From NCBI GenBank assembly GCA_021323735.1, contig JAJPKM010000042.1:1-64000 (forward strand): a stretch of DNA of 64,000 bases, in the 5' to 3' direction. This document shows, piece after piece, positions 6,384-49,060 of this stretch. The position numbers were made by a program, and so were the translations under genes. This DNA comes from Gammaproteobacteria bacterium (lineage in GTDB: Bacteria; Pseudomonadota; Gammaproteobacteria; Steroidobacterales; Steroidobacteraceae). The notes beneath the pieces are model-generated. The model was not told where the DNA came from. It searched no databases and worked only from the letters and a program-made list of their open reading frames with translations. Within the stretch, counting starts at the first letter, position 1. Each line of letters begins with the position of its first letter.

Positions 6384-9164
6384 ATGTTGTCCAAGAACAG
6401 CAAAATCAGCGGTGGAATTCGTTCGCACGGAGGGAGTGCGGCACTCATCAAAGCAGGCTCACTGAGCGGTGCATCCGCGCTCACCCTTGCCGTGCTGGCA
6501 ACCCTGCATGGCACACCGGCCAGGGCCGCCGATGCGGCGGAGGAGGACACGGCACTGACCGAGATCGTGGTCACGGCGGAAAAGCGCTCGGAGAACCTCG
6601 AGCGAGTACCGGCATCGATCAGCGCGTTTACCGCCAAGGCGCTCGATCTGCAGGGCATAGCGTCGGTTCAAGACCTGACCAACTACGCGCCCGGTCTGTA
6701 CTACACCACTTACGATAATCGCCCCTACATTCGCGGCATCGGCCGGAACACCGACAATCTGGCGGTCGAGTCCGGCGTCGCCGTGTATGTAGACGGCGTC
6801 TACAACGGTGCCAACGCCTCGACAATCTTGCAAGATTCGACGCTGTTCGTCGATCAAATCCAGGTTCTGCGCGGTCCGCAAAGCACCTTGTTCGGCCGCA
6901 ACGCCGATGGCGGCACGATCGACTATGTCTCCAAGCGCCCCACGAGCGACTTCGAGGGTGAGTTTCGCACCGGCTACGACAATTTCCAGAAGGCCTTCAT
7001 CGAAGGCGCGGTGTCGGGACCGATCAGCGACTCCGTCCGCTATCGGTTCGGGGCCAATTACACCAACCAGACCAGCGACGGCTTCTACAAGAACTTGAAC
7101 GGCGTCAGGGAGGGCGGCGACGTCGCACAGGGCGGTAACGGCACCAGCTATCACATCGAGGGACAACTCGAAGGCAGCATCGGTTCGAGCTTCGACTGGT
7201 GGACCAAGCTTGCCACGAGCGACTACGACGTGAGCTATCACACGGAAACGCTATTAGGGCCTTTGGATACGCGGGAGTTCCCCAACCCTCTGTTTCCCAA
7301 CGCCAATTTTGGCACTTGCGCGCTGCCCGGAGGCGCCGGCGGCTTAGGCTGCGCCGGCAGCCCGGACAAGATCGTCAGCGTCCTTGCCGGCAAAAACACC
7401 ATCGCGGGAAATCCCAGCGCGCTCGGGACCGGCACATTCGACTCGGGTTTCCAGTCGCAGGCCAAGGAGCAGAACAATTGGATTTTTGCCACTCATCTGA
7501 CCTTCCATGCCGATGGCTTCGACGTGAAGTACTTAGGGGGATATCAGAAGTTCAACTTCGACCTCACGGCGCCGTGGAACAACAGCCAAGGCGTTTCCAG
7601 CGGAATCCTGGGATACACCCTGCAGGGACCTGCCGCGCCTACGCCGCTGTGCGGGCTCTTCTTTGGTGCCAGCAATCTTGCTGGATGCGCCCAAAATCTG
7701 GCGATCAACTCGGCTCACAACGCCTTCACGTTCGATGAGTTCGAACAATTTTTCAGCAATGAGCTGAACATCGCCTCCACCGGCCAGGGACCGTTGCAGT
7801 GGATTGGCGGTCTCTATCAATTCCACGAGAAATACACGCAGCCCATCAATCTGATCAGCCCGGACCAGGCGCAGATCGCAACGCCCTATTCGCTCGGTAG
7901 CCTCATAGCCGGAATAACAGGGGCCATACCCATCGTCGGCTCGCTCAAGCCGGCGCCTGCAAACCCATTGCGCTCGACTTACAACGAATTCACCGCACTT
8001 GCCGAGGACTCCTACGGCATCTTCGGCCAGATCGATTGGCAGGCGAGCAGCCAATTCAAGTTCACCACCGGCTTGCGCTACTCCTACGACAAGAAGGACG
8101 GCGGCCAGGCCTTTCGGAACGTCCTGTTCAACGTCGATGGGCTCATTCCAGGCCTGCCGCTGGGCGTGAATCAATTTGGCGCCAACGCGCCGGCGTTCGA
8201 TGCCACGTCCTGCAAGACCGGCGCGTACAGCGGTACCGGCAAGTGCACCATCGATCCCGTTACGGGTGCAGCCACCAGCACGCTGGACGCGCATTGGGGT
8301 GCCGTCACGGGCGTAGCCGGCGTATCTTGGACACCGACCACGGACATCCTCGGCTACGCGAAATACAGTCGCGGCTACAAGGCCGGCGGGTTCAACTCCG
8401 GTATCAACGCGATCAACCCTGAAACGGCGCAGGAGACCGTGGACGCGTTCGAAGTCGGCTACAAGCAGACCTTTGCGCGGACCTTCCAGGCGAATGCGTC
8501 TGTGTTTTACTACAACTACAAGAACGATCAGCAGCCGCTGGGACAGCTCGATCCGGCCACGAATGTGATCAACACCATTATTGTGAATATTCCCGTGGCG
8601 CACACCTACGGTGCCGAACTGGAGACGATTTGGAACCCGATCACCGACCTCGATATCTCCCTGAACTACGCGTACCTGCACGCGACCATCTCCAGCACGA
8701 ACGGAGTGTGCTATCAGGATGCCGTGGATCCGCTGGCGCTTACGCCCGGCGCGAACACCCGAGGCTGCGCAGCAGGCCTGCAGAACCTCGTCGGTGCGAC
8801 ACTACCCGCATCGCCGCGCAATAAGGTCGCATTGAACGCAATCTATACACTGCACTTCAATCCGGGTTCCCTGGCGCTGTCCGGCGCCTACATCTGGAGG
8901 GATCAGACCTACGACTCGGTCTTCAATCGTCCGTATAACCTGTCGCCTTCCTATTCCCTGGTCAACTTGCGCGGGACCTGGACCGACACCGCCAATCGCT
9001 ACAACGTGATTCTTTATGCCAACAACGTCTTCAACAAGATCGGCCAGGACGCCTCGGCCGGCTTGGCGGTTACGAACCCAGGTCCCGGGCAGGTCATCGA
9101 TCCCTTGGTTAGCTACACCCCGCCGAGGGTCTACGGCGTGGAACTGCGCTACCGCTTCCACTGA
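6384..9164 (+). CDS. TonB-dependent outer-membrane receptor
   Basis: A 926-residue receptor. An extended N-terminus with a hydrophobic core (about 27-41) ends in ARA at 46-48, consistent with a signal peptide. It is followed by a TonB-box region EIVVTAEKR (60-68), a plug domain (about 70-190) with YVDGVY and VLRGPQSTLFGRNADGG, and a long 22-strand barrel ending GVELRYRFH. The terminal residue is His after Phe, where most barrels end in Phe or Trp. Such receptors move siderophores, oligosaccharides or aromatic/lipidic substrates with TonB-ExbBD energy; the ligand is not predictable. The ribosome site AGGAGAGGG lies about 7 bp before the ATG. No regulator is adjacent. The downstream sulfotransferase and second receptor suggest a shared uptake locus. 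Confidence 0.92.
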   Translation: MLSKNSKISGGIRSHGGSAALIKAGSLSGASALTLAVLATLHGTPARAADAAEEDTALTEIVVTAEKRSENLERVPASISAFTAKALDLQGIASVQDLTNYAPGLYYTTYDNRPYIRGIGRNTDNLAVESGVAVYVDGVYNGANASTILQDSTLFVDQIQVLRGPQSTLFGRNADGGTIDYVSKRPTSDFEGEFRTGYDNFQKAFIEGAVSGPISDSVRYRFGANYTNQTSDGFYKNLNGVREGGDVAQGGNGTSYHIEGQLEGSIGSSFDWWTKLATSDYDVSYHTETLLGPLDTREFPNPLFPNANFGTCALPGGAGGLGCAGSPDKIVSVLAGKNTIAGNPSALGTGTFDSGFQSQAKEQNNWIFATHLTFHADGFDVKYLGGYQKFNFDLTAPWNNSQGVSSGILGYTLQGPAAPTPLCGLFFGASNLAGCAQNLAINSAHNAFTFDEFEQFFSNELNIASTGQGPLQWIGGLYQFHEKYTQPINLISPDQAQIATPYSLGSLIAGITGAIPIVGSLKPAPANPLRSTYNEFTALAEDSYGIFGQIDWQASSQFKFTTGLRYSYDKKDGGQAFRNVLFNVDGLIPGLPLGVNQFGANAPAFDATSCKTGAYSGTGKCTIDPVTGAATSTLDAHWGAVTGVAGVSWTPTTDILGYAKYSRGYKAGGFNSGINAINPETAQETVDAFEVGYKQTFARTFQANASVFYYNYKNDQQPLGQLDPATNVINTIIVNIPVAHTYGAELETIWNPITDLDISLNYAYLHATISSTNGVCYQDAVDPLALTPGANTRGCAAGLQNLVGATLPASPRNKVALNAIYTLHFNPGSLALSGAYIWRDQTYDSVFNRPYNLSPSYSLVNLRGTWTDTANRYNVILYANNVFNKIGQDASAGLAVTNPGPGQVIDPLVSYTPPRVYGVELRYRFH

Positions 9165-10877: not shown

Positions 10878-10982
10878 GGGTATGGATGCCAATCTTAAAG
10901 AGTCGCACGGGGCCTACAGCCCGGTGCAACGAAGCAGCGCAGCTGCACCAATAATTCTATCGATCGAAAGGTGAATGACCGT

Positions 10983-13538
10983 ATGACAAATCAAACTGTG
11001 TCCTCCCGGCGAGCTTTTTCACTCGTCCTCGCCCTAACCGCGAGTTTTGCCGGCGCCGAGGCGCTGGCGGCGGACGCTTCGAACGCACCGGCACTGGAAG
11101 AAATCATCGTTACCGCGGAAAAGCGCTCGGAAAATTTGCAGGACGTGCCGATTTCCGTGGTCGCTCTGTCCGCACAGCAGATCAAGGATGCCGGCATCAC
11201 CGATATCAGAAATCTCACCATCCTCACCCCCGGACTCACCGTCACCTCCGAGGGCAACGAAGCCATCACCACCGCGCGTATCCGCGGCATCGGCACGGTC
11301 GGCGACAATCCGGGACTCGAGTCCTCCGTGGGCGTCAACATCGACGGCGTCTATCGACCCCGCAACGGCGTCGCGTTCGGCGACTTGGGCGAGATCGAGC
11401 AGATCGAAGTTCTGTACGGCCCCCAGGGCGAATTGTTCGGCAAGAACAACGATGCCGGCGTCATCAACGTCACCACCAAGCGACCCTCGAATACCTTCGG
11501 CGTGACCGCCGAGGTGACGGGCGGCAACTTGAACGACCGGGAGTTCCGCTCCTCCGTCACCGGACCGCTGAACAGCATCATGTCGGGACGTTTGTATGTG
11601 GGTTTCGAGGAGAACTCCGGTTTCCTGCAAGTCAATGACGGTGTCGGCCCCAGCACCCAGAACAACACCAACGACCGCCACGCCATCAACGGCCGGGGCC
11701 AGCTGCTCATCACGCCCAGCGACGATTTGGAGGTCTTGCTCATCGCCGACTATTCCAAACGCATTGAATCCTGCTGCGGCGCCGTGGTCGAGTATCCGGG
11801 CCCCTTCCAGGGGCTGGTCAATTTCTTCGCGTCGACACCGATACCTGGCCTGGGCGGCAAACCCGGTGCGCTCGGCGATTCTCCGCTCATCGGCCAGCCC
11901 GGCGTGAATCGGCTGCCCCAGAGTTACCTGGCCTATGCCAACCAGCCTGCCGCTCAGGATGTGCGCGACACGGGCCTGTCGGCACAATTTGACTGGAATC
12001 TGGGCTTTGGAAAATTCACCTCGATCACCGCCTGGCGCGACTTCACGGTATCGGGCGGCAATGACGTGGACTACACCGGCATCGATCTGTTCTACTTCCC
12101 GAACAACGGCGACGCCAACTTCACCGATTTCAAGCAATTCAGCGAGGAGCTGCGCTTGGCCGGCAAGGAGGGCGCGTTGAGCTGGTTGGTGGGCTCATTC
12201 TTCAACAACGAAATCCTCTCGACCCGCACCACGGGCTCCATCGGCAATCAATTCGAGGGCTACTTGAGTTCGGTGGCATCCTTGGCCGCAGGACCACCCC
12301 CGGGCGGTGGACCACCCCGAGCCAACCCTTTCCTGATATCGCAGATCACCGGCACTCCGTATGGCAGCACCTTTGACGGTACCGGCTATGACGACGGCTA
12401 TCAGCAGACGGCCAGAAGCTTTGCCCTGTTCACCAACGAGACTTGGAACATCACCCAGGGGCTGGACCTGACCTTCGGCTTGCGTGGCACCGAAGAGAAG
12501 AAAACGGCCGTTGCGGCCTTCAACAGTATCGGCGGCGGCCCGGGCTGTTCCGCGTTGATCAGCCCTGCCAACGTGGGGAAGGTCATCACGCAACCGGGTA
12601 ACGCGGCACCCTTCCTGATCGGCTATGGGTGCTTCAGCGGACTAGACCCGGCATTTACCGGTACGGGATTCAACCAGTCGAACACCGAGAACAACTTGTC
12701 GGGCACGGTCAAGCTGGCCTATCACTTCAACCAGGACGTGATGACCTACGCCTCGCTGGCGGACGGCTACAAGGCGGGCGGCTACAACCTGTCGCGCGTC
12801 ACCAACGCGCCGTCGGCCAAGGATCCTTTCGGTCTTGCGCCGGACTACAACACGCACTTTCCGCGTGAAACGGTCGACTCGGGAGAAGTGGGCATCAAGA
12901 CCACGCTGTTCGACAAGACACTGCGCTTGAATGGCGCGCTGTTCTATCAGCGGTACAAGGATTTCCAGCTCAACACGTTCACCGGCGTGCAATTCGTGGT
13001 CACCTCGCTCGACCGAGTGGTGTCCAAAGGCCTTGACCTGGATTTCGCCTGGGCCACGCCGATCACGGGGCTGACCTTCGCCGGCGGTGTGACGCAGGAT
13101 CTGACCAACATCGACAATTTCGGCAACGCCTTGCCGGATTTCTGCGGCGGCCCGGGAAATACCGCCTGCACCCACCGCAACAACGATCGCCTGTCGTTTG
13201 CTCCCCTGTGGTCCGGTGCGCTCTCCGGTACCTACCAGGTCCCGCTGTCGAGCACGTTGACCCTGCGTACCAGCCTGGAGGAGAAGTACAACACGTCGTA
13301 CAACACGGGCTCTGATCTCGATCCGCGCAAGATTCAATCCGGCTTCGGACTGCTGAATGGGCGTATCGGACTGGGTGCGCCGGATGAATCCTGGGCGATC
13401 GAGGCATGGGGAGCCAACCTGGCGAATCGATACTATTACGCCGTCGCCTTCGACTCACCGTTCCAGTACAACACCATCTCTTCCTACCTGGGCGAATCGC
13501 GGACCTTCGGTCTGACGGCGCGGGTGAAATTCAAATAG
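10983..13538 (+). CDS. TonB-dependent outer-membrane receptor
   Basis: From ATG 10983 the protein has 851 residues. The signal peptide hydrophobic core (12-20) ends with ALAA at 27-30, and the TonB-box region EIIVTAEKR follows at 40-48. The plug contains RIRGIGTVGDNPG, IDGVYRPRNGV and VLYGPQGELFGKNNDAG, and a long barrel ends in ARVKFK. A GTG at 10971 in frame is possible, but the GAAAGG ribosome site overlaps it and fits the ATG better. Plug motifs resemble those of the first receptor, yet extracellular loops differ strongly, so the two probably have different ligands. A strong rho-independent terminator follows 30 bp after the stop. Confidence 0.92.
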   Translation: MTNQTVSSRRAFSLVLALTASFAGAEALAADASNAPALEEIIVTAEKRSENLQDVPISVVALSAQQIKDAGITDIRNLTILTPGLTVTSEGNEAITTARIRGIGTVGDNPGLESSVGVNIDGVYRPRNGVAFGDLGEIEQIEVLYGPQGELFGKNNDAGVINVTTKRPSNTFGVTAEVTGGNLNDREFRSSVTGPLNSIMSGRLYVGFEENSGFLQVNDGVGPSTQNNTNDRHAINGRGQLLITPSDDLEVLLIADYSKRIESCCGAVVEYPGPFQGLVNFFASTPIPGLGGKPGALGDSPLIGQPGVNRLPQSYLAYANQPAAQDVRDTGLSAQFDWNLGFGKFTSITAWRDFTVSGGNDVDYTGIDLFYFPNNGDANFTDFKQFSEELRLAGKEGALSWLVGSFFNNEILSTRTTGSIGNQFEGYLSSVASLAAGPPPGGGPPRANPFLISQITGTPYGSTFDGTGYDDGYQQTARSFALFTNETWNITQGLDLTFGLRGTEEKKTAVAAFNSIGGGPGCSALISPANVGKVITQPGNAAPFLIGYGCFSGLDPAFTGTGFNQSNTENNLSGTVKLAYHFNQDVMTYASLADGYKAGGYNLSRVTNAPSAKDPFGLAPDYNTHFPRETVDSGEVGIKTTLFDKTLRLNGALFYQRYKDFQLNTFTGVQFVVTSLDRVVSKGLDLDFAWATPITGLTFAGGVTQDLTNIDNFGNALPDFCGGPGNTACTHRNNDRLSFAPLWSGALSGTYQVPLSSTLTLRTSLEEKYNTSYNTGSDLDPRKIQSGFGLLNGRIGLGAPDESWAIEAWGANLANRYYYAVAFDSPFQYNTISSYLGESRTFGLTARVKFK

Positions 13539-36811: not shown

Positions 36812-37258
36812 TTATTCGAGGCAGACCACGAGTTTGGCGGAGTGCGTGCGCCAGTTGATGGGGATGACGAAGGATCGCGAGTGCGGCGTGGTCACTTTTT
36901 CCAGGTCGTGCGCAATGACCACGGGAACCGAGATGACGAAATTCTTGCCGAAGTCGCGGCGCGCGTTGCCGGAAATGGTATTGGCGACCTCGCCGACGAG
37001 ATCCTTGATGTTCTCGTCGCTGGTGTCGGTTTCCTGCATGCGCATGAGCAGCACCGTGAGCATGCCGCGGGGGGCAGTGAAATAGACGACGCCTTTGCGC
37101 GCGCCGGTGACCCCGATGACGCCTGTGTATTCATAGGCGCCGGGGTTGCCGTCCGTGACCAGGTACGGCGAGCCGACCGTGGCCGACTGTTGCGCGGAGG
37201 TCTCGAAGTAGTTGGTCGTTCCTTCGATGAATGTGCGGATTTCTGCTTCTTTGAACAT
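36812..37258 (-). CDS. cheX: CheX-like phosphatase of phosphorylated response regulator
   Basis: From ATG 37258 the protein has 148 residues: MFKEAEIRTFIEGTTNYF, repeated beta-strands (YTGVIGVTGARKGVVYF) and the helix DLVGEVANTISGNARRDFG, in which Glu90-x2-Asn93 corresponds to the E-x-x-N active pair of CheC/CheX/FliY phosphatases. CheX removes the phosphoryl group from CheY~P. Its start lies one base after the cheY stop, so this is the last of five nearly fused cistrons. It converges with the PQQ dehydrogenase gene. No flagellar or chemoreceptor genes are nearby, so it probably shapes the output of a non-chemotaxis relay. Confidence 0.85.
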   Translation of the reverse strand: MFKEAEIRTFIEGTTNYFETSAQQSATVGSPYLVTDGNPGAYEYTGVIGVTGARKGVVYFTAPRGMLTVLLMRMQETDTSDENIKDLVGEVANTISGNARRDFGKNFVISVPVVIAHDLEKVTTPHSRSFVIPINWRTHSAKLVVCLE

Positions 37259-37259
37259 C

Positions 37260-37652
37260 TCAAGCCTCCGACAGCAGCTCTTCCAACGCATCGTTGAGCT
37301 GGCGATCGGTGAAAGGCTTGCACAGGAATCCGTTCGCGCCTTTTTCAATGGCTTCGACCGCGGTGGCTTTATCGGCGAGCGCCGACACCACCAGAATCAG
37401 CACCTCGGAATTGATTGCGATCAGTTCCTCGACGCATTCGATCCCGTCCATTTCCGGCATGGTCAAGTCCATGGTCACCACATCGGGTTGAGTGCGGCGA
37501 AACATTTCTACCGCGGCACGGCCGTTGCTGGCGGCGCCGACCACTTCGAGGCGGGCGATCTGCTGGGAGCGTTCTATGCGCCGCCGGATGATATTCGAGT
37601 CATCGACGATCATGAGCTTCAATGTGCCCTTGGAGCGAACCGACGTATCCAT
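37260..37652 (-). CDS. CheY-like single-domain response regulator
   Basis: A 130-residue receiver domain with no output domain. The acidic pair is Asp17-Asp18 (IVDDS), the phosphoacceptor Asp62 (TMDLTMPEMDG), the switch Ser90 (VVSAL) and Lys112 (LCKPF). All catalytic residues are intact. It begins one base after the CheA-like kinase stop, so it is the likely direct acceptor of the phosphoryl group from His448 of that kinase. With the CheX gene immediately downstream this makes a kinase-receiver-phosphatase triad. Confidence 0.92.
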   Translation of the reverse strand: MDTSVRSKGTLKLMIVDDSNIIRRRIERSQQIARLEVVGAASNGRAAVEMFRRTQPDVVTMDLTMPEMDGIECVEELIAINSEVLILVVSALADKATAVEAIEKGANGFLCKPFTDRQLNDALEELLSEA

Positions 37653-37653
37653 T

Positions 37654-39858
37654 TCAAGCCGCTTCCGTATTCCCGGCGCGTTTGGCCGGCGGCAGACTCA
37701 ATGTGATACGCGTGAACTTCCCTGGCACGGTAGCCAGCGAAACCTTGCCGCCGACCTGCTGCATGAGCCCGGCCATCAAATTCATCCCCACGCCTCGCCC
37801 CGCATCCTTGGTGGCATTCTCCACCGTCGAGAACCCGGGCTGGAAGAGCAGCGAGAACACTTGTTTCGCATCCAAGGTGGCTGCCTTCTCCGGCGTGATG
37901 AACCCCTTCCTCAGTGCCGCCTGCTTGATCTTTTCGGTCGACATGCCCTGCCCGTCGTCTTCGGCGATGAGCTTGTAGCCGGCGTCGCCGAGTTCCTGGA
38001 ATATCAGCTTGAGCTGTCCCTGCGTGGGCTTCCCGGCGCCCAGCCGGTCGTTCGCGGATTCGAGGCCATGTACGATGGAATTTCGCACGGCCTGCACGGC
38101 AATATCCTTGACGATGCGCCGATACTGATCCGGCACCGTATCGAATCCCAGGCATTGCAGGGACGCTTCCTTGTTGTTTTCGTTGGCCACCCGCGCCGTC
38201 AGCTGCTGCAGCATGGAGGGCACGCTGCCCTCGTTTTTGGCGATAATTTCCGAGCCGCCACGCTCGATGACCGCCGTATCCGCATGGGCGTCGGAGTCGC
38301 CACCGGCGGCGACATGCAGGCGCGCCAGGCGCGAAACCAAGTCGCCGACGGACTGCAAGTGGGTCAACAGGTCGTCCAGCTTGATGACCAGCGGAAGGAA
38401 GTCGTTGCCCGACAGATCGGATTTCTCGCGCAAATTCTTCAAATCATCCTCGAAGGAGTGCGCGCGGCTCTCGATGGACGACAATCCCAGGGCCGCAGCT
38501 TCGCCTTTCACCGAATGGACTTGACGGAACAGGGTGTCGAGCTTCTTGCGGAAGGCGCTCTCCTCGCGGGCCGGCTCGCGCAGCACCGCGTTGATCATTT
38601 TCATCGCGGCGTTGGAGTCGCTCAGGAATGAAGCCAGCTGCGTCGGATCGACGTGCAGAATACCCAGCAAGGTATCGACTTGTGCCTGTGCCTGCGTCTG
38701 CGAGGTCTGCAGTTCTCGGGCGAGATCCACGCGGGCGCTGACATCCGCGACCGCCACCAGCACATGCGTGATCTTGTTGTCGACCCGCACGCGGTGGAAA
38801 TCGAACTGCAAATAGCGCGTGGCGATCTTGCCCTGACCCGAATCGAAATTGACTTCGATTTCGCCGAGCGGGTTGATGGTCTTGACCAGGTTCTCCTTGG
38901 TGCGTTCCGACCACAGCACCCCGATGAACTTGAGGGCCGTCGCGAGCGTCTTCTCGGAAACGATGTCCTTGAGCAGCGTCTCGAAGGGCAGCCCGGCGAA
39001 ATCCGTGCGCTGAAACAGCGATTCGAGCGCGCTCGAGTATGAGGCACCGATGATGAGGTTCTCATCGAGCAGGAACAAGCCGTCCTTCACCGTGCGCAGG
39101 ATATCCGCGGTCTGTTGACGCGCCTGGCGCAGCGAGGCGTCCTGGCGTTGCCGCGCGAGCATCAAAATCGATACCAGTGCCGCCAGCACGATCGCGATGA
39201 GTAGGCCGGTGAGCATGACGAGGCGCAATTCGGTGGCCGAGCGCGCGCTGCCGGTCTGCAGGTCGGTCACGATGGCATTGAGCTCGCCGTCGATCAACGG
39301 TATCACGCGCTTGGTGATGCGGATGGAGGTGGCGAGGTCCCGTTCCAGCTGCTTACCGCTCTCATTGAGCGCAGTACCGGTCGTCTCGTTGTCCTGGTAG
39401 GGCACGCCCTTGAATTTCAGGATGGGATCGAGCGACTCCTGCTCCTTGGCCCACAGTTCGCGCAGTGCCGCGGCATGCTTGCCGGAGATGGGTTCGCCCT
39501 TGGCGGAGGTGTCGCCCGACAAGGCGAACCAGCTCGCGGCACGCGACGCGTTCATCTCATGCAACCCGGCGTCGAGCTTGGTGGCGGCATCGCGCAGCTG
39601 ATCGATCGATTCCTGGATATAACCGCGCGTCGTCAAGTGGTCGTGCATCGAGTCGAGCGATGCGTGGATGAGTGCCGGATTGCGCTGCTGCTGTCCGACG
39701 AACTTGAGGGACACGGTGGTATCGGCCAGTTCGCTGGCGAGTTCCAGACCCGGTATCAATACGACGGCAACGAAGGCGAAGGCGAGGATGATCACCAGCA
39801 CCACCAGGCCGCCTCCGGTCATTCGCGGTACTAAACTGCTGGCAAGACGACGGTTCAT
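37654..39858 (-). CDS. Membrane-bound CheA-like Hpt histidine kinase without CheW domain
   Basis: A 734-residue protein. TM1 is about 16-38 and TM2 about 213-234, enclosing a 175-residue helical periplasmic sensor. A PAS-like domain (about 250-380) and a helical linker follow. The Hpt-like histidine is His448 in QVHSVKGEAAALG. The CheA-type ATPase has N-box AVRNSIVHG (589-598), EDDGQGM (633-639) and GRGVGMN (687-693). It ends about 40 residues after the ATPase, so no CheW-like regulatory domain exists. P2 is also not recognisable. It would sense a periplasmic or membrane cue directly and phosphorylate the CheY encoded next. The gene starts three bases after the Ser/Thr kinase stop. Confidence 0.88.
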   Translation of the reverse strand: MNRRLASSLVPRMTGGGLVVLVIILAFAFVAVVLIPGLELASELADTTVSLKFVGQQQRNPALIHASLDSMHDHLTTRGYIQESIDQLRDAATKLDAGLHEMNASRAASWFALSGDTSAKGEPISGKHAAALRELWAKEQESLDPILKFKGVPYQDNETTGTALNESGKQLERDLATSIRITKRVIPLIDGELNAIVTDLQTGSARSATELRLVMLTGLLIAIVLAALVSILMLARQRQDASLRQARQQTADILRTVKDGLFLLDENLIIGASYSSALESLFQRTDFAGLPFETLLKDIVSEKTLATALKFIGVLWSERTKENLVKTINPLGEIEVNFDSGQGKIATRYLQFDFHRVRVDNKITHVLVAVADVSARVDLARELQTSQTQAQAQVDTLLGILHVDPTQLASFLSDSNAAMKMINAVLREPAREESAFRKKLDTLFRQVHSVKGEAAALGLSSIESRAHSFEDDLKNLREKSDLSGNDFLPLVIKLDDLLTHLQSVGDLVSRLARLHVAAGGDSDAHADTAVIERGGSEIIAKNEGSVPSMLQQLTARVANENNKEASLQCLGFDTVPDQYRRIVKDIAVQAVRNSIVHGLESANDRLGAGKPTQGQLKLIFQELGDAGYKLIAEDDGQGMSTEKIKQAALRKGFITPEKAATLDAKQVFSLLFQPGFSTVENATKDAGRGVGMNLMAGLMQQVGGKVSLATVPGKFTRITLSLPPAKRAGNTEAA

Positions 39859-39861
39859 GGA

Positions 39862-41211
39862 TCAAGCGCTCCGCTGTGGTTTGCTGGGTTTGCGAGTCAT
39901 CAATTCCGCACGCAAGACATCCAAGGCATCCAAGAATTCCGCGGCGGAGGCAAATCGTTCTTTCGGATCTTTCGCCAACAGGCGATCCATGATCGACTGG
40001 TAGGGTGCCAAGTGATCGGGCATGCGCGGTACCGGGGCGCCACGGTGCGCCGCCAGGATGTCCGCCAGCGTCTTTCCCATGAAGGGCAAGGTGCCGCAGA
40101 GCATTTCGTAGAACACCACACCGAGACTGTAAAGATCGCCCCTGGCGTCGGGTTCCCGGTCATCGATTTGCTCGGGGCACACATAGTAAGGCGTTCCCGT
40201 GCAATCGCTGGCACTGGCACTGGCCGGATCATTCGACAGAAACCCGCCCCGCGCGGATCCGAAGTCGATGAGCACCAGGCGATTCTCGTTGGTCAGCATG
40301 AGATTGGACGGTTTTAGATCGCGATGGACCACGCGCGCAGCGTGCACGATTTGCAATGCCTCGCCGATTTGATGCGCATAATTCATGGCGTCCAATTCGC
40401 TCACCGGATGCTTCAGCCGCTCGCGCAAGCTCCCGCAGGGAAAGTATTCCAGCGCCAGATACAAATAGTCGTCGGTCGTGCCGAAATCGAGGACATTGGC
40501 GATGGATCGGTGATTGAGCTTCGACAAAATCGCGCATTCCTTGGTGAAGCGCTCCCTGTCGGCCTCGGACATCAGATGCCGCCCTTTGACGGCCTCGATT
40601 TTCAATGCGACCGGCTGCGGGAAGTCATCGTTGCGTGCCAGGTAGACACTGGCGGCGGAAGATTGCGCGATCTTCTTCATCATGGTGTAGCCGGCGATTT
40701 CCGGCTGGCGCCATCGGTCTGCCGCGGTGTTTGCGGCGACGGCCGGCGGCGGCGCCTCGAGCAACGGCTGAAGCGCGGTGCAGAGTTCGCCGATGATCAC
40801 CGAATGGATGGGCCAGTAATCGCTGGCACCCAGCTTCATGACGCGTGCGGCACTGCGTTCGTTGCCGCCGCGGGCGAACACGAATATCGGCAAGTTCGGC
40901 GCCTGCTCATGCAGGCGCTTGAGAGCCGCGAGCGATCCGTTGGCCGCTTCCGGCGGACTGAATTCGACGATGAACATTACCGCCACGTACGCACGCAAGC
41001 GCTCGGTTGAAATGGCATCGAAGCCGGCACGCGTCACCGTATCCGCATCGATTTTCGGCATTGCGCGGCGCACCAGGCCCGCGAGCCGCAAGCGCAGTTC
41101 CAGCTCATCGTGCACGATCAGGCACAGCACCGTGCCGCGGCTGCGCTCAACGGCAGTCGGCGGTACCAGCGTGGTACTCGTGGCCGAGGTGGTTGCGGTT
41201 TGACTGTTCAC
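39862..41211 (-). CDS. Ser/Thr protein kinase with N-terminal degenerate receiver domain
   Basis: A 449-residue protein. Residues 27-150 look like a receiver fold (VLCLIVHDELELRLRLAG; IFVFARGG; KLGASDYWPI), but the phosphoacceptor place reads VMFIVEFS with Glu83 in place of Asp, so it is probably a pseudo-receiver. The Hanks kinase domain (about 173-440) is intact: Lys204 in VALK, catalytic HRDLKPSN at 296-303, DFG at 316-318, and GTPYYVCPEQ. No transmembrane segment is seen, so it is soluble. It sits between the TonB fusion gene (8 bp upstream) and the CheA-like gene (3 bp downstream), suggesting crosstalk between phosphorelay and Ser/Thr phosphorylation. Substrates are unknown. Confidence 0.9.
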   Translation of the reverse strand: MNSQTATTSATSTTLVPPTAVERSRGTVLCLIVHDELELRLRLAGLVRRAMPKIDADTVTRAGFDAISTERLRAYVAVMFIVEFSPPEAANGSLAALKRLHEQAPNLPIFVFARGGNERSAARVMKLGASDYWPIHSVIIGELCTALQPLLEAPPPAVAANTAADRWRQPEIAGYTMMKKIAQSSAASVYLARNDDFPQPVALKIEAVKGRHLMSEADRERFTKECAILSKLNHRSIANVLDFGTTDDYLYLALEYFPCGSLRERLKHPVSELDAMNYAHQIGEALQIVHAARVVHRDLKPSNLMLTNENRLVLIDFGSARGGFLSNDPASASASDCTGTPYYVCPEQIDDREPDARGDLYSLGVVFYEMLCGTLPFMGKTLADILAAHRGAPVPRMPDHLAPYQSIMDRLLAKDPKERFASAAEFLDALDVLRAELMTRKPSKPQRSA

Positions 41212-41219
41212 GGCAGCGT

Positions 41220-43277
41220 CTACTTGGGCACGCGGTAAGCGATGCGCACCTGCGTGCCCACGGCGATGGCCTTACCGCCCTGCACCACCGGCTGGTAGCG
41301 CAAGTGGCTCACCGCTTTGGTCGCCGAGGTCTCGAACACCTTGGGAGGCGTGGCATTCAGAACTTTCACATTCGTAACCACACCGTCGGGTCCGACCGTA
41401 TAGCCGACTTCCACCCATCCCTCGATGCCGCTCTGCAGGGCTCGCGGCGGATACTGCACGTCAAGCTTGGTCAGGCGCGTCAACGACTGTTCCGGCACTT
41501 GCAACGGTCCGGCGCCCGCGACTTTCCTTTGGCGAATTTTGTCGTTGAGCGCATCCAAATCGGCGGAGGCGCCAAGACCGGTGGCGAGTTGCACCAGCGT
41601 CTCCGACCTGTCCAGGTCGCCGGCGTCAAGCGCGGCGCGCGCGCGCTCGACGATCTGCCCCTGCACTGCGCCGCTGATCTGCGGAAGCGCACTGTTTTTC
41701 GGATCGGCACCGCGCAGCTGATTGACATAGAACAATGCGCTGTCATTGTCCGGCTCGGTGAGCTTGCCCTGGGCCAGACGCGACTGCGCCAGCTCGAGGT
41801 ACTGCGGCAGCTCAGGCTTCGGCGCCGACTGACTTTTGGCCTGGCTCAGTTCACGCTGCAGGCCGGTCACGGTTGCCGCAGGCGCTCCCATGGTGTGCAT
41901 CTCGGCGAGGACTCGCTCCGCGTCGCCGTAGTTTCGTTGCTGGATGGCGCCGTGCGCCATTTGCACCAGGCGCTTGACCAAGTCCTGCGTCTGCGCCTGC
42001 AAGGCGGGGCCGCCGGCACCGGCTTGTTTCGCTTGATCGAGGTAGTAGAGCGCACTGTCGTTGCGCGGATCGATCAGATGATCTTGCTGCACGCGTGCAT
42101 CGACGAGCTGGAGCAGCCGGGTCACCTCGAAGTCGGCCCGCCGACGATGAACATCATCGCGCAGTTGGGCAATTTTCGCGGGCGGAAGTGCCTTCGAGCG
42201 CGCCGCCTCATCGAGCAACTGGGTCGCGCGGTCGAAGTTCTGGGCATTGAGGGCGGCGAGAATCTGTGCCGGACCTATTTCGGCGCGCAGACTTGCTATT
42301 TTTTCGTCGAGAGCCGACAAGCGCTTGTCGTTCGCATCGATGCTGCGTGCGGTCTCCAGGAACTGCAATGCCGTGTCGAACTTGCGCTCATCGAGAGCCG
42401 ACTGCACGCGCGCAATCAAGATCTCCGCAAGGCGCTGCAGTCCTTGCCGCGCCTCGCCATTGTTGGGGTTGAGAACGAGCACTTCGCGATAGAGTGAGAG
42501 CGCGCTGGCTGCCGCCGGATCGATGAAGTGCCGATCCTGCATGGCTTCCTGCGCTCTCTCGATGAGTGCGTCGATTTTTTCGTCGACTTCGGCCGGCGAC
42601 TTCGGAGCGGTCGGGGCCGCGGCCGCCTTGGCAGGCTCTGATGCAGACGGTGCCGACGATGTAGATGATGCGCTCACCGGCTTCACGTCACCGGGGCCCC
42701 GGCGGGCGAGCATGAAAGCAACCAGCGCCGCGATGAGGACTCCGCCGATCACGGCCGGGACCAGCCAAGGTTTTTTCGGAGCGGCGGCAAGGGTCGGTGT
42801 CGGGGTCGAGCCGTCGCCCAAGAGCGCCAGACGTGAATTCACCTCTTCGTGGGCGCTGTCGAGCGCACCGGTGAGCACGTTGTCCTCGATGGGCAACCCG
42901 ACGTGGGCTACCACCTGCCGATGTTGAATGGGCAGCGTCCACGCATTGCTGCTCGTAGCATGGTCCAACGCGACGATGGCAAAGCGCGAGGAATGCATAT
43001 GCAGACGCGACAGCACCGACGCCGGGTCCGGATGGTTACGCGCATCCCACAACACGATCCCGGCCTGGCCCGAGGGCACCGAACCGACCAACTCGTCGAT
43101 CGTGTCGATCTGCTTTAGAACCAGCCCGCCATTTAAGTCGGCGCCTATCTGCGGCCACAACGATTCGTCGCCGGTAACCAAGAACACGGTGAGCTTTTGC
43201 TTTCTCACCGCTTGAGGCATTGCCCGCTCGGCTGGCTCCGCTGTTGTAAGTTCATGTTTTCTCAAACTCTTCGGCAT
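41220..43277 (-). CDS. Receiver-like/TPR/TonB C-terminal domain fusion (energy transducer-like)
   Basis: A 685-residue protein. An N-terminal cytoplasmic receiver-like domain (about 28-145) has Asp78 in IVLWDARN at the phosphoacceptor-like position but lacks a clear acidic pair. One transmembrane helix (171-191) is followed by a Ser/Ala/Pro linker. A long helical TPR-like region (about 220-590) contains three or more repeats with the recurrent phrase ID-P-NDSALYY/LFY. The C-terminal TonB_C domain begins near 600 (QYPPRALQSGIEGWVEVGYTV). The TonB part would be periplasmic. Classical ExbB/ExbD genes are not nearby. It is the first gene of the five-gene unit. The ATG has a GAGG ribosome site nine bases upstream. 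Confidence 0.85.
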   Translation of the reverse strand: MPKSLRKHELTTAEPAERAMPQAVRKQKLTVFLVTGDESLWPQIGADLNGGLVLKQIDTIDELVGSVPSGQAGIVLWDARNHPDPASVLSRLHMHSSRFAIVALDHATSSNAWTLPIQHRQVVAHVGLPIEDNVLTGALDSAHEEVNSRLALLGDGSTPTPTLAAAPKKPWLVPAVIGGVLIAALVAFMLARRGPGDVKPVSASSTSSAPSASEPAKAAAAPTAPKSPAEVDEKIDALIERAQEAMQDRHFIDPAAASALSLYREVLVLNPNNGEARQGLQRLAEILIARVQSALDERKFDTALQFLETARSIDANDKRLSALDEKIASLRAEIGPAQILAALNAQNFDRATQLLDEAARSKALPPAKIAQLRDDVHRRRADFEVTRLLQLVDARVQQDHLIDPRNDSALYYLDQAKQAGAGGPALQAQTQDLVKRLVQMAHGAIQQRNYGDAERVLAEMHTMGAPAATVTGLQRELSQAKSQSAPKPELPQYLELAQSRLAQGKLTEPDNDSALFYVNQLRGADPKNSALPQISGAVQGQIVERARAALDAGDLDRSETLVQLATGLGASADLDALNDKIRQRKVAGAGPLQVPEQSLTRLTKLDVQYPPRALQSGIEGWVEVGYTVGPDGVVTNVKVLNATPPKVFETSATKAVSHLRYQPVVQGGKAIAVGTQVRIAYRVPK

Positions 43278-43647
43278 CTTATGGCCTCATGTTGCAATCG
43301 TCCGCGGCGGCTTCATTGCGCCGCGATCGCATTCGTATACCGCGAATGTTCTGTGTTTGGCTTAACACAATAAGGTTCCGGCAAATGCGGGGCTGAGGAC
43401 ATGCTTTGGGTCACATTTGGCTGCGCCCAAACGCCCGGAAAGGCCGTGATGGCCAGGGCAAACATAAAAGATGAGAACTGCTTAACAGAGCGGGGAGGCT
43501 TCCCCCGCAGAAATGCGCGTTACCGGCGCCGATCGCCGCTAGGTCGCCCGCTGGAGTTCCGGCCGAGCTTGCCGATCACATGACCCGGTACAAATCGCCG
43601 GTCGCACAGTCACATTTTGCCGGCCAAGTCGGCCGGAATCGCCACCG
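43278..43647. other. 370-bp intergenic region upstream of the signalling operon
   Basis: No convincing gene lies here; a 60-codon plus-strand frame (43401-43583) lacks a ribosome site and natural composition. The stretch must hold the promoter of the minus-strand five-gene operon. Visible structures are a 6-bp inverted repeat at 43352-43369, a GC-rich hairpin GCGGGG/CCCCGC near 43490-43510 without T-tract, and a CCGGCC/GGCCGG hairpin at 43620-43636 just after the upstream gene's stop. Confidence 0.5.
43352..43369. promoter_or_regulatory. Short inverted repeat, possible operator of signalling operon
   Basis: TGTGTT, a six-base spacer TGGCTT, then AACACA. It lies about 75 bp upstream of the TonB-fusion ATG in an otherwise GC-rich region. 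A 6-bp palindrome of this kind can arise by chance, so this is weak. Confidence 0.25.
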
Positions 43648-46235: not shown

Positions 46236-47453
46236 TCAAACCAACTTCAGGTCGATCGACGCGGCCTGCGGAAAGATATCCGCGCTTTGCGCGGGCGACA
46301 GATCCCACAGCGAACGGAACAAGCCGCCCAGGACCGATCGGTAATCGTTCAGCACGGGAAAATCCCGATTTTGAAACAGCGTGGCTTGCGCGACTCGCTG
46401 CTGCTCTCCGCAGATCTTTCCGCCGCTGATCGATCCGCCCAACACCCAATAGACGGTACCGTGGCCGTGATCCGTTCCACGATTGCCGTTCTCGCGAAAC
46501 GTCCGGCCGAATTCGGACACCACCACGACCACGGTGTTGTTCCACTCCGCGCCGAGAGACTGGGCAAAGGTCTGCAGACCCTTCCCCAAACTGCCCAAAT
46601 TGTTGGCCAGCGTTCCCTGTGCCGCGCCCTCCCCCACATGGGTATCCCATCCCCCGATGTCGACGAATCCCAGCCGGTATTTGTCGCGCATCAACCGGCC
46701 CATGCGTTCGGCTTGGAGTTCGAAACCTCGGGTATTGACGGCGTTGCGATTGGCCGCGGTCATCTCGTCGGCCATCTCTTGCGCCACTTCGTGGCGCAAT
46801 TCCAGACCGGTGCTCACCGCAGCTTCGAGGCGATGCCCGGCATACATGTCGTTCAGGATGCGCGCCTGCCGCTCGTCGAAGGGCTGTTTGCCCACGTTCT
46901 TGAGCGAAAGGTTGGGCACGCCCGCCGGGCCTTCGAAGGCCAGCGGCAAGGCATCCGTGAACGCAATCGATGCGTTCCCGGAAGAGCCGGACAAGATTTC
47001 AGCGAGGCGCCCGAGAAAGCCCGATCGATAATTGCGCTTGCCGGCCGCCGGCTGGCCGAGCTCGATGCTGTCCTGGGTTTCGAAATGGCTGCGCGACAGA
47101 TCATCCGTGCCGGCAAAGGGTACGAATGCGGCCTGCCGCTGCAGGTACATCTCGCCGACCGTATCGCGAACTGCGGGTGCCAGCGCCCAATCGCCGTCCA
47201 GCGCGAGGGCGCCGCCGTTGGACGAGGGACCGGGTCCGGGAATGGCTATCGTCGGACGCGCCTCATAGTAGAAGCTGCTCGAATAGGGGATCAGCAGATT
47301 GGTGGAATCGTACCCGCCGCGCAGAAAAACCAGCAGAAAACGCGGCCCTGCGCCCGGTGCGGCGTACAAGCGGCCGGTGATCGAGGCGCCGGCCAGCGCC
47401 GCCGCGCCGGCTGCCAACAAACGACGCCGGGTCATGGATGCTCGATTATTCAT
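46236..47453 (-). CDS. DUF1501 family Tat-exported protein
   Basis: From ATG 47453 the protein has 405 residues. The Tat-like signal MTRRRLLAAGAAALAG starts at residue 7. The mature part begins FLLVFLRGGYDSTNLLIPY, with DDLSRSHFETQDSIE, IGGWDTHVGE, VVVVVSEFGRTFRENGNRGTDHGHG. These are the DUF1501 hallmarks, which resemble alkaline-phosphatase/sulfatase-superfamily metal sites (D-x-H, FGR, DHG). It overlaps the DUF1800 gene by 8 bp, the usual order for this pair. The pair is thought to act in the periplasm or cell envelope, but its reaction is unknown. Confidence 0.88.
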   Translation of the reverse strand: MNNRASMTRRRLLAAGAAALAGASITGRLYAAPGAGPRFLLVFLRGGYDSTNLLIPYSSSFYYEARPTIAIPGPGPSSNGGALALDGDWALAPAVRDTVGEMYLQRQAAFVPFAGTDDLSRSHFETQDSIELGQPAAGKRNYRSGFLGRLAEILSGSSGNASIAFTDALPLAFEGPAGVPNLSLKNVGKQPFDERQARILNDMYAGHRLEAAVSTGLELRHEVAQEMADEMTAANRNAVNTRGFELQAERMGRLMRDKYRLGFVDIGGWDTHVGEGAAQGTLANNLGSLGKGLQTFAQSLGAEWNNTVVVVVSEFGRTFRENGNRGTDHGHGTVYWVLGGSISGGKICGEQQRVAQATLFQNRDFPVLNDYRSVLGGLFRSLWDLSPAQSADIFPQAASIDLKLV

Positions 47454-48984
47454 AGTTGAATTCCGGCGATGAGAGCAGAAAGGTGTTCCACTCCTGTTGT
47501 GAATTCGCGCGATCGAGCGCGGTCTTGGTGTGCGTGGCGAGAAACGGCTCGATGGCCTGGTAGTACAGTCGATTCGCGAGCTGCGGGAAACCCACCGTGG
47601 TGGCCGCGCTTCCGTCTTCTGCATCGAACAGCGCGGCGTTGCCGGCACCGATGCTGCGGGCGATTTCGAATCGCCGACTCATCTGCCCCGAGCTTGCCCA
47701 GCCCAGCTCGGTCATGGGATAGCCGTCGGGGGTCTGGCGGCCGAACGGAGCCTCGCCCAGGCCGTTGAGCCAATTCAGCATGGGACGGGCATTGCTGATC
47801 GATTTGCCGTCGTAGGCTAGGCGCACGGCTGAGATCACGAAGCGCATGGGGTCCTTGAATTTCGCTCCAAACGAGACGGCCATTTCGGGCGATATGAATA
47901 GCGCATGCAGTACGGCCCCGATGTCGCCGTCGGTTCGCATGAAGGTCTGCGTCAGGCGCTCTACCAGGATGGGCGGCGGGTCGTCGGCCACGAAGTAGAC
48001 CGCCAGCTCACGGGATATGAACCGAGCGCAGGCGGGTTGCGCGACGATGATCCTCACCGCATCCTCCACTTCACCGAATCCGGTGCCTCGCACCGGCTGA
48101 CCGAGGAGAGTCTTGGCGCCGAAGTCATGGCGGGCCGGGTTGAACTCAAATGCCCCGCGCCGCAAGTACAGGCGCTGCCACTCAGGCCTCAGGTGCGGCG
48201 CATTCCCGGCATTGATGCCCACGCCCGTGAGCACCCGTGCCAGTTCCTGAACATCATGCTGCGAGTAACCCCCGCTGACTCCCAGGGTATGAAGTTCCAG
48301 GAGTTCCCGGGCATAGTTCTCATTGATGTGGCCCGCGGCGTTTTGACCGTTGTCGAGGTACTGCAGCATGGCCGGATGCTGCAGTGTCGCCATCACCAAA
48401 TCCTTGAAATACCCGAACACGTGCGGCCGAATCGCTTGCTCCTCGTAGTCGCCGACCAGCCACCGCAGATTCGCCTTGTACTGGAACACACTGAAGTGAT
48501 TCAGCCAGAACCAGGTCATTTGTTCTTGGAGCTGCGCGGGCGAATAAACCGCCCGCAGCAACTCACGGCGAATGGCCTCATAGGCAAGCCTGTTGCCGCG
48601 CTCGTTGAGCGTCTTGCGCGCCTGGTCCCGTTCCGGCCCGTCAGGCATGGCATTGATCGCCTTGAACTGCGCATTGACGCCGGCGATGGCCTGCACAGGA
48701 TCTGCGCGCGTGATTTCAAGACCCGCAATCTGCGCGGCGATCGGTGCGGGCAACGCCGCCTGCGCCGGATGCAGCTGTTGATCGAGGAATTTCTCCTTGC
48801 CCAACCGGCGAAAGTCGGCGACACCGGCCGCATCCAGGCCGAACGATATGCGCTCGAGCCACAGCGTGTCCTCACGGTGCAGCGGGCGCAATGGCTCCGG
48901 TGCGGTGCGCGGCTGACCGGGTTGCGTCGAGCACCCGGCCAGAAGCACTGCGGTACAGAGACCCACGAGATCACGCCGGCTCAT
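47446..48984 (-). CDS. DUF1800 family lipoprotein
   Basis: From ATG 48984 the protein has 512 residues, begins MSRRDLVGLCTAVLLAGC and has a lipobox LAGC with Cys18, so it is probably an outer-membrane lipoprotein. A TTG at 49020 is an alternative start. DUF1800 motifs are present: WLERISFGLDAAGVADF, EQMTWFWLNHFSVFQ, HPAMLQYLDNGQN, NENYARELLELHTLGV and GYSQHDVQELARVLTG. The DUF1800-DUF1501 pair is widespread in Bacteroidetes, Planctomycetes and gammaproteobacteria. The catalytic role is unknown; conserved His and Asn residues may bind a ligand or metal. Confidence 0.88.
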   Translation of the reverse strand: MSRRDLVGLCTAVLLAGCSTQPGQPRTAPEPLRPLHREDTLWLERISFGLDAAGVADFRRLGKEKFLDQQLHPAQAALPAPIAAQIAGLEITRADPVQAIAGVNAQFKAINAMPDGPERDQARKTLNERGNRLAYEAIRRELLRAVYSPAQLQEQMTWFWLNHFSVFQYKANLRWLVGDYEEQAIRPHVFGYFKDLVMATLQHPAMLQYLDNGQNAAGHINENYARELLELHTLGVSGGYSQHDVQELARVLTGVGINAGNAPHLRPEWQRLYLRRGAFEFNPARHDFGAKTLLGQPVRGTGFGEVEDAVRIIVAQPACARFISRELAVYFVADDPPPILVERLTQTFMRTDGDIGAVLHALFISPEMAVSFGAKFKDPMRFVISAVRLAYDGKSISNARPMLNWLNGLGEAPFGRQTPDGYPMTELGWASSGQMSRRFEIARSIGAGNAALFDAEDGSAATTVGFPQLANRLYYQAIEPFLATHTKTALDRANSQQEWNTFLLSSPEFNYE

Positions 48985-49060
48985 GCGAAGGTAACGGCCT
49001 GCCGCGGTGCGGGTTGACAAGGATTCAGCCGGCCACTTGGCGGCAGCCCATGAGCGAGGC

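Follow-up and report, generated by a model that had tools for sequence, protein, structure and literature searches.

What might five closely packed genes do together when they combine chemotaxis-type phosphotransfer proteins with a TonB-type domain and a Ser/Thr kinase? The question is raised by an operon at positions 36812-43277 of the window, as we call the whole 64,000-nucleotide stretch of DNA that was analysed. The initial annotation described five minus-strand genes with gaps of 8, 3, 1 and 1 bases, and the reading frames confirm both strand and spacing. From 5' to 3' on the minus strand, the genes encode a TonB fusion, a Ser/Thr kinase, a histidine kinase (HK), CheY and CheX, and the features with the evidence behind each are as follows:

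43278-43647, strand not assigned: intergenic region upstream of the operon, presumed promoter location
41220-43277, minus strand: REC-TM-TPR-TonB_C fusion, 685 aa (Pfam, alignments, AlphaFold model, Foldseek)
39862-41211, minus strand: Ser/Thr kinase with an N-terminal pseudo-receiver, 449 aa, GTG start (Pfam, active-site residues)
37654-39858, minus strand: membrane histidine kinase (HK), 734 aa (Pfam, TM helices, structural model)
37260-37652, minus strand: CheY-like single-domain response regulator, 130 aa (Pfam, active-site residues)
36812-37258, minus strand: predicted CheX phosphatase, 148 aa, ATG at 37258 (Pfam, solved-structure match, alignment)

The sigma-70 consensus has no match in the upstream region (43278-43647), and promoter and terminator scans gave nothing above chance. 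The scanned neighbours in the window encode metabolic and transport proteins, a PAS histidine kinase, proteins of unknown function and two TonB-dependent receptors, the latter at 6384-9164 and 10971-13538, more than 23 kb from the operon. None of these scanned neighbours carries an MCP, CheW, CheB, CheR or flagellar domain, in agreement with the original reading that chemoreceptor, CheW, CheB/R and flagellar genes are absent nearby. There are no ExbB/ExbD genes in the operon. Elsewhere in the same genome there are canonical CheA/ChpA-type kinases, flagellin, several PilT-family genes and ExbD homologues. A pair of minus-strand genes, DUF1501 and DUF1800, is found at 46236-49020 of the window.

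Is this arrangement peculiar to one genome, as would argue against a single system? Using gene calls made in relatives with a simple codon-usage caller written for this analysis, the order TonB-STK-HK-CheY-CheX recurs in at least ten genomes (the window, L021, L022, L025, L026, L027, L028, L149, L150 (with L145) and L006), all from the window's family. The flanking genes vary between most genomes while the operon block stays. Since the order is conserved against different flanking genes, it is not a chance arrangement, and its recurrence supports the earlier proposal that the five genes are one conserved functional unit. Many members of the family have TonB-HK-CheY-CheX without the Ser/Thr kinase, and the variant order HK-CheY-CheX-TonB occurs in L030, L043, L157 and L159. 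Judging from these sequence comparisons, the core of the operon is the HK-CheY-CheX triad, around which the flanking genes change.

The kinase family is present in 50 of 246 genomes at the order level. At the class level, kinase matches above the threshold come from 17 of 369 genomes, five of which match only in the C-terminal ATPase region, and 13 of 369 have a CheX of the operon's type. The triad itself is sparse in Gammaproteobacteria, being found in several families and in 11-12 of the 369 sampled genomes (G000 included). A phylum-wide search gave matches only in Gammaproteobacteria, with two candidates scored per genome, which makes it weak evidence of absence elsewhere. Five of the 369 genomes encode a protein that strongly matches the receiver-TPR part of the TonB fusion over its full length. 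All five belong to the 12 with strong HK/CheX matches, and in three of them a long distance separates the TonB gene from the triad. This unlinked co-occurrence, seen in two lineages only, is suggestive of a joint function.

No output gene common to all triad loci was found. Conserved neighbours were considered as a clue to function and rejected: the flanks in L032-L034 and L038-L039 form an amine/amino-acid cluster (aminotransferase, GntR regulator, DAO, Gln-synthetase and permease) that is not common to the other loci. Two triad loci have unusual structures. At L040:778-3060, HK and CheX are 82 bases apart and CheY is missing between them, through loss, relocation or an assembly fault. At L094:6242-13931, the HK-CheY-CheX set occurs twice in tandem, one copy having two successive CheX genes.

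What kind of kinase heads this triad? Pfam detects an Hpt domain (1.4e-8) and HATPase_c (6.5e-11), and two transmembrane helices (residues 17-35 and 213-231) bracket a periplasmic domain. In distant homologues this periplasmic part is PilJ-type (PilJ domain, 6.2e-15). The structural model and the sequence together place a PAS-like module (258-372), the Hpt domain (405-519) and a CheA-P4-type ATPase (546-722) in the cytoplasmic part, with a disordered linker joining Hpt and ATPase in the model. The phospho-histidine candidate is His448 (codon 38515-38517), situated in the helical Hpt domain. By both sequence and fold the HK is similar to CheA P1 and P4, and on these grounds it is predicted to use CheA-like chemistry. 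CheA relies on chemoreceptors for sensing. In a published survey (PMC10542144) it is characterised by four core domains present in all members, Hpt, P3, HATPase and CheW, and by having no sensor domain of its own. Among 19 HK family members, no Pfam match to CheW or to P3 (H-kinase_dim) is found. Assignment of the HK to CheA was therefore rejected: two of the four core domains, P3 and CheW, are lacking, and the protein carries a periplasmic sensor itself; the label "CheA-like" given initially does not make it one.

The other two members of the triad are more conventional. CheY (Response_reg, 3.9e-27) is a receiver without an output domain, and it has the phospho-Asp, Thr/Ser, Lys and acidic pair of a single-domain regulator (Asp62, Ser90, Lys112 and DD, all intact). 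The CheX gene product is assigned to the CheX phosphatase family by its profile match (PF13690, 1.7e-20) and by matches to solved CheX structures at 1e-15; its catalytic Glu90 and Asn93 (Glu-x-x-Asn) are invariant in 17 homologues, and it is predicted to dephosphorylate CheY-P. With active sites intact in HK, CheY and CheX, the set of kinase, receiver and phosphatase is complete, as had been proposed.

Do these three proteins belong to one pathway? A natural experiment is provided by HK homologues in which loss of the phospho-histidine accompanies loss of CheY and CheX. Among 75 distinct homologues, a count that leaves out three classical CheA sequences found by the same profile, CheX is directly downstream in 55 of the 56 that bear the histidine, the remaining one being cut by a contig end, and CheY is beside 54 of these 56. 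The His-less homologues have neither CheY (0/19) nor CheX (0/19). A Fisher test of this association gives p = 7e-17, a value that overstates independence because many of the sequences are related, and the histidine has been lost in at least two separate lineages. This coupling of His and CheX is the best comparative evidence available, and it fits a single pathway in which His, CheY and CheX would act together.

A His-less copy is present in the same genome. On contig C10 (L044:7337-10349), a Ser/Thr kinase gene is followed by a soluble, membrane-free HK paralogue in which Asp replaces the phospho-histidine, with no CheY or CheX alongside. This second locus is conserved in L100-L115 as a receiver-like Ser/Thr kinase and then a His-less HK paralogue, most with Asp at the phospho-histidine site; overall, receiver-Ser/Thr kinase genes are found beside 17 of the 19 His-less HK paralogues. 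The second locus (L044, L100-L115) also adjoins a trypsin/PDZ (HtrA-like) protease gene, and in L112 a TonB fusion lies upstream of its Ser/Thr kinase and His-less HK.

The first gene of the operon, annotated from the outset as a receiver joined to TonB, is a true fusion. Pfam recognises TonB_C (PF03544, 1.7e-17) and has no match to the receiver, which is seen by structure. In the AlphaFold model (mean pLDDT 82), residues 29-150 adopt a receiver fold, followed by a membrane helix (172-190), a TPR-like solenoid (228-587) and TonB_C (608-682). With Foldseek, the receiver, made of alternating strands and helices, matches 3kcn, 3hv2 and DctD; the solenoid matches TPR superhelices; and the C-terminal domain, in which the YP motif is kept, matches receptor-bound TonB (6i97_D, TM-score 0.90, and 2gsk_B). 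The receiver presumably sits in the cytoplasm and the TPR-TonB_C arm in the periplasm. Asp78 (codon 43044-43046) is at the end of strand 3, the phospho-acceptor place of receivers, is present in 26 of the 26 sequences that cover the site and is the sole invariant residue of the receiver domain in two alignments. In the window's clade the switch Lys and Thr/Ser are lost (Lys is Leu in the window protein), so Asp78 may be structural; the Lys is retained in L030, L157, L159 and a paralogue from the same genome. In TonB, a transmembrane-helix histidine (Ser/His motif) provides the coupling to ExbB/ExbD. No histidine is found in the helix of the window protein, nor on inspection of the family alignment, which makes classical ExbB/ExbD coupling unlikely. 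The fusion thus has the C-terminal domain of a TonB energy transducer and neither the N-terminal Ser/His-motif helix nor ExbB/ExbD in its operon.

Related proteins occur in other settings. A second receiver-TM-TPR-TonB_C protein of the same genome (contig C47, L199:8600-10504) keeps the phospho-Asp and Lys and does not adjoin a triad. In a distant family (L174:6133-7860, L201:7097-8818 and L202:7725-9446), receiver-TPR-TonB_C genes have ExbD-like genes within a few genes of them, in contrast to the gene of the operon.

The Ser/Thr kinase (Pkinase, 2.7e-47) has the catalytic residues of a Hanks-type enzyme, with Lys204, Asp298 (HRD) and Asp316 (DFG) intact, and a degenerate Gly-rich loop. Its receiver has Glu83 at the place of the phospho-acceptor Asp, and Pro134 near that of the Lys, which is absent; the designation pseudo-receiver is borne out. 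In L086, a distant homologue encoded next to an HK-CheY-CheX triad retains an intact receiver, and the L153 homologue keeps Asp and Lys, so the window's receiver looks like one that has lost phosphorylation. In a kinase tree bearing on an origin of the operon copy from the second locus, the branches are long. The place first given to this kinase in the system is not upheld: it is an operon member in the window's clade and is not essential, as most homologous operons are without it.

On balance, we consider it probable that the operon is a self-contained, membrane-anchored phosphorelay whose output is achieved by protein contact and not by transcription. An envelope signal would be sensed by the two-helix-anchored periplasmic domain of the HK, related to PilJ-type sensors, and would pass through the PAS-like module, leading the HK to phosphorylate its own Hpt His448. 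The phosphoryl group would then move to Asp62 of the stand-alone CheY, and CheX, through Glu90/Asn93, would erase CheY-P and keep the signal short-lived. We infer this direction of flow (HK to CheY, with removal by CheX), which the comparative data back, together with the partners, the signal and the physiological output. CheY-P, perhaps along with direct phosphorylation of Asp78, may alter the binding of the TPR-TonB_C arm to an envelope partner. The TonB fusion would be the most likely effector and the Ser/Thr kinase an optional branch; in the window's clade, the latter, with its non-phosphorylatable receiver, would most likely dock to the circuit and phosphorylate a further target. More tentatively, the operon could represent a new class of envelope signalling system, one where a CheW-free, sensor-bearing Hpt kinase would phosphorylate both a CheX-erased CheY and the receiver of the TonB fusion, so that a cytoplasmic switch moves a periplasmic TonB-like arm, a His-less copy of the kinase having been repurposed as a partner of receiver-Ser/Thr kinases. 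If the TonB fusion is phosphorylated, this would be a direct inside-to-outside route in which a cytoplasmic receiver controls a periplasmic TonB-type arm without ExbB/ExbD. The operon further suggests that chemoreceptor arrays are not required for a CheA-type catalytic core, with erasure by CheX, to function.

How do other explanations compare? The relay might control type IV pili or surface behaviour. The HK would then combine a PilJ-like sensor and a ChpA-like kinase in one protein, and the TonB fusion would act like Pseudomonas TonB3. The PilJ domain of distant HK homologues and the several PilT-family genes of the genome point this way, as does the precedent of P. aeruginosa, in which TonB3/PocAB is required for pilus assembly and polar localisation (PMC5285504). 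However, neither this operon nor its counterparts in the checked relatives adjoin an identified pilus gene; PilJ-type domains are also known outside pilus systems, and neither the TPR arm nor the receiver of the fusion is described for TonB3; we regard this as a real possibility that falls short of probable. That the Ser/Thr kinase is instead the main output seems rather unlikely to us. In that case CheY-P would control the enzyme by binding its pseudo-receiver, and the TonB fusion would be a substrate of the enzyme. In several families (L086, L153, L149, L150) HK homologues are indeed accompanied by receiver-kinase genes, as are nearly all His-less paralogues, and Lys, HRD and DFG are intact, but the Gly-rich loop is degenerate and most TonB-HK-CheY-CheX operons have no adjoining Ser/Thr kinase.

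The initial annotation suggested a link to transport by the TonB receptors. On this view TonB-dependent uptake would be what the operon senses or drives, and the fusion would serve outer-membrane receptors as a regulated energy transducer. While the resemblance of its TonB_C domain to receptor-bound TonB, the kept YP motif and the two receptors in the window are in its favour, the distance of those receptors, the helix without the coupling histidine and the absence of ExbB/ExbD from the operon, with ExbD homologues elsewhere in the genome, leave the link unsupported. A tie to the window's own receptors was rejected on distance and the missing histidine, and the wider uptake explanation is improbable. 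Least credible, and disfavoured, is the absence of any joint function, with an ordinary two-component pair lying beside unrelated envelope and kinase genes. Many triad loci do lack the Ser/Thr kinase and TonB genes, but the order is kept against changing flanks, the gaps are only 1-8 bases, and the triad and the TonB fusion are found in the same genomes even where they are not linked.

The preferred phosphorelay can finally be set against known systems. A literature search covering mainly freely searchable papers turned up none that describes the five-gene set. Like the CheA-CheY-CheX chemotaxis cycle, the operon has an Hpt kinase with a CheA-type P4 ATPase, a single-domain receiver and a CheX with catalytic Glu and Asn; unlike it, the operon has no chemoreceptor, CheW, CheB or CheR, and its HK has its own membrane sensor and lacks P3 and CheW domains. 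With Pil-Chp (PilJ, ChpA, PilG/PilH) and TonB3/PocAB it shares a PilJ-type sensor in distant members, an Hpt kinase, a CheY-like regulator and a TonB_C protein. It differs from them in that sensor and kinase are fused, CheX is present, the TonB protein bears a receiver and a TPR arm, and no pilus gene is nearby. The fusion resembles TonB/ExbB/ExbD transducers in its C-terminal fold and presumed periplasmic placement, whereas its transmembrane helix has no His, its operon no ExbB/ExbD, and a TPR solenoid replaces the Pro-rich spacer of a protein that also has a cytoplasmic receiver. The operon kinase, a receiver followed by a PknB-like kinase domain, is organised like Hanks-type Ser/Thr kinases with receivers, but Glu occupies the Asp site of its degenerate receiver, and its gene is within a histidine-kinase operon. 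Each part is already known, and it is the combination that appears to be new.
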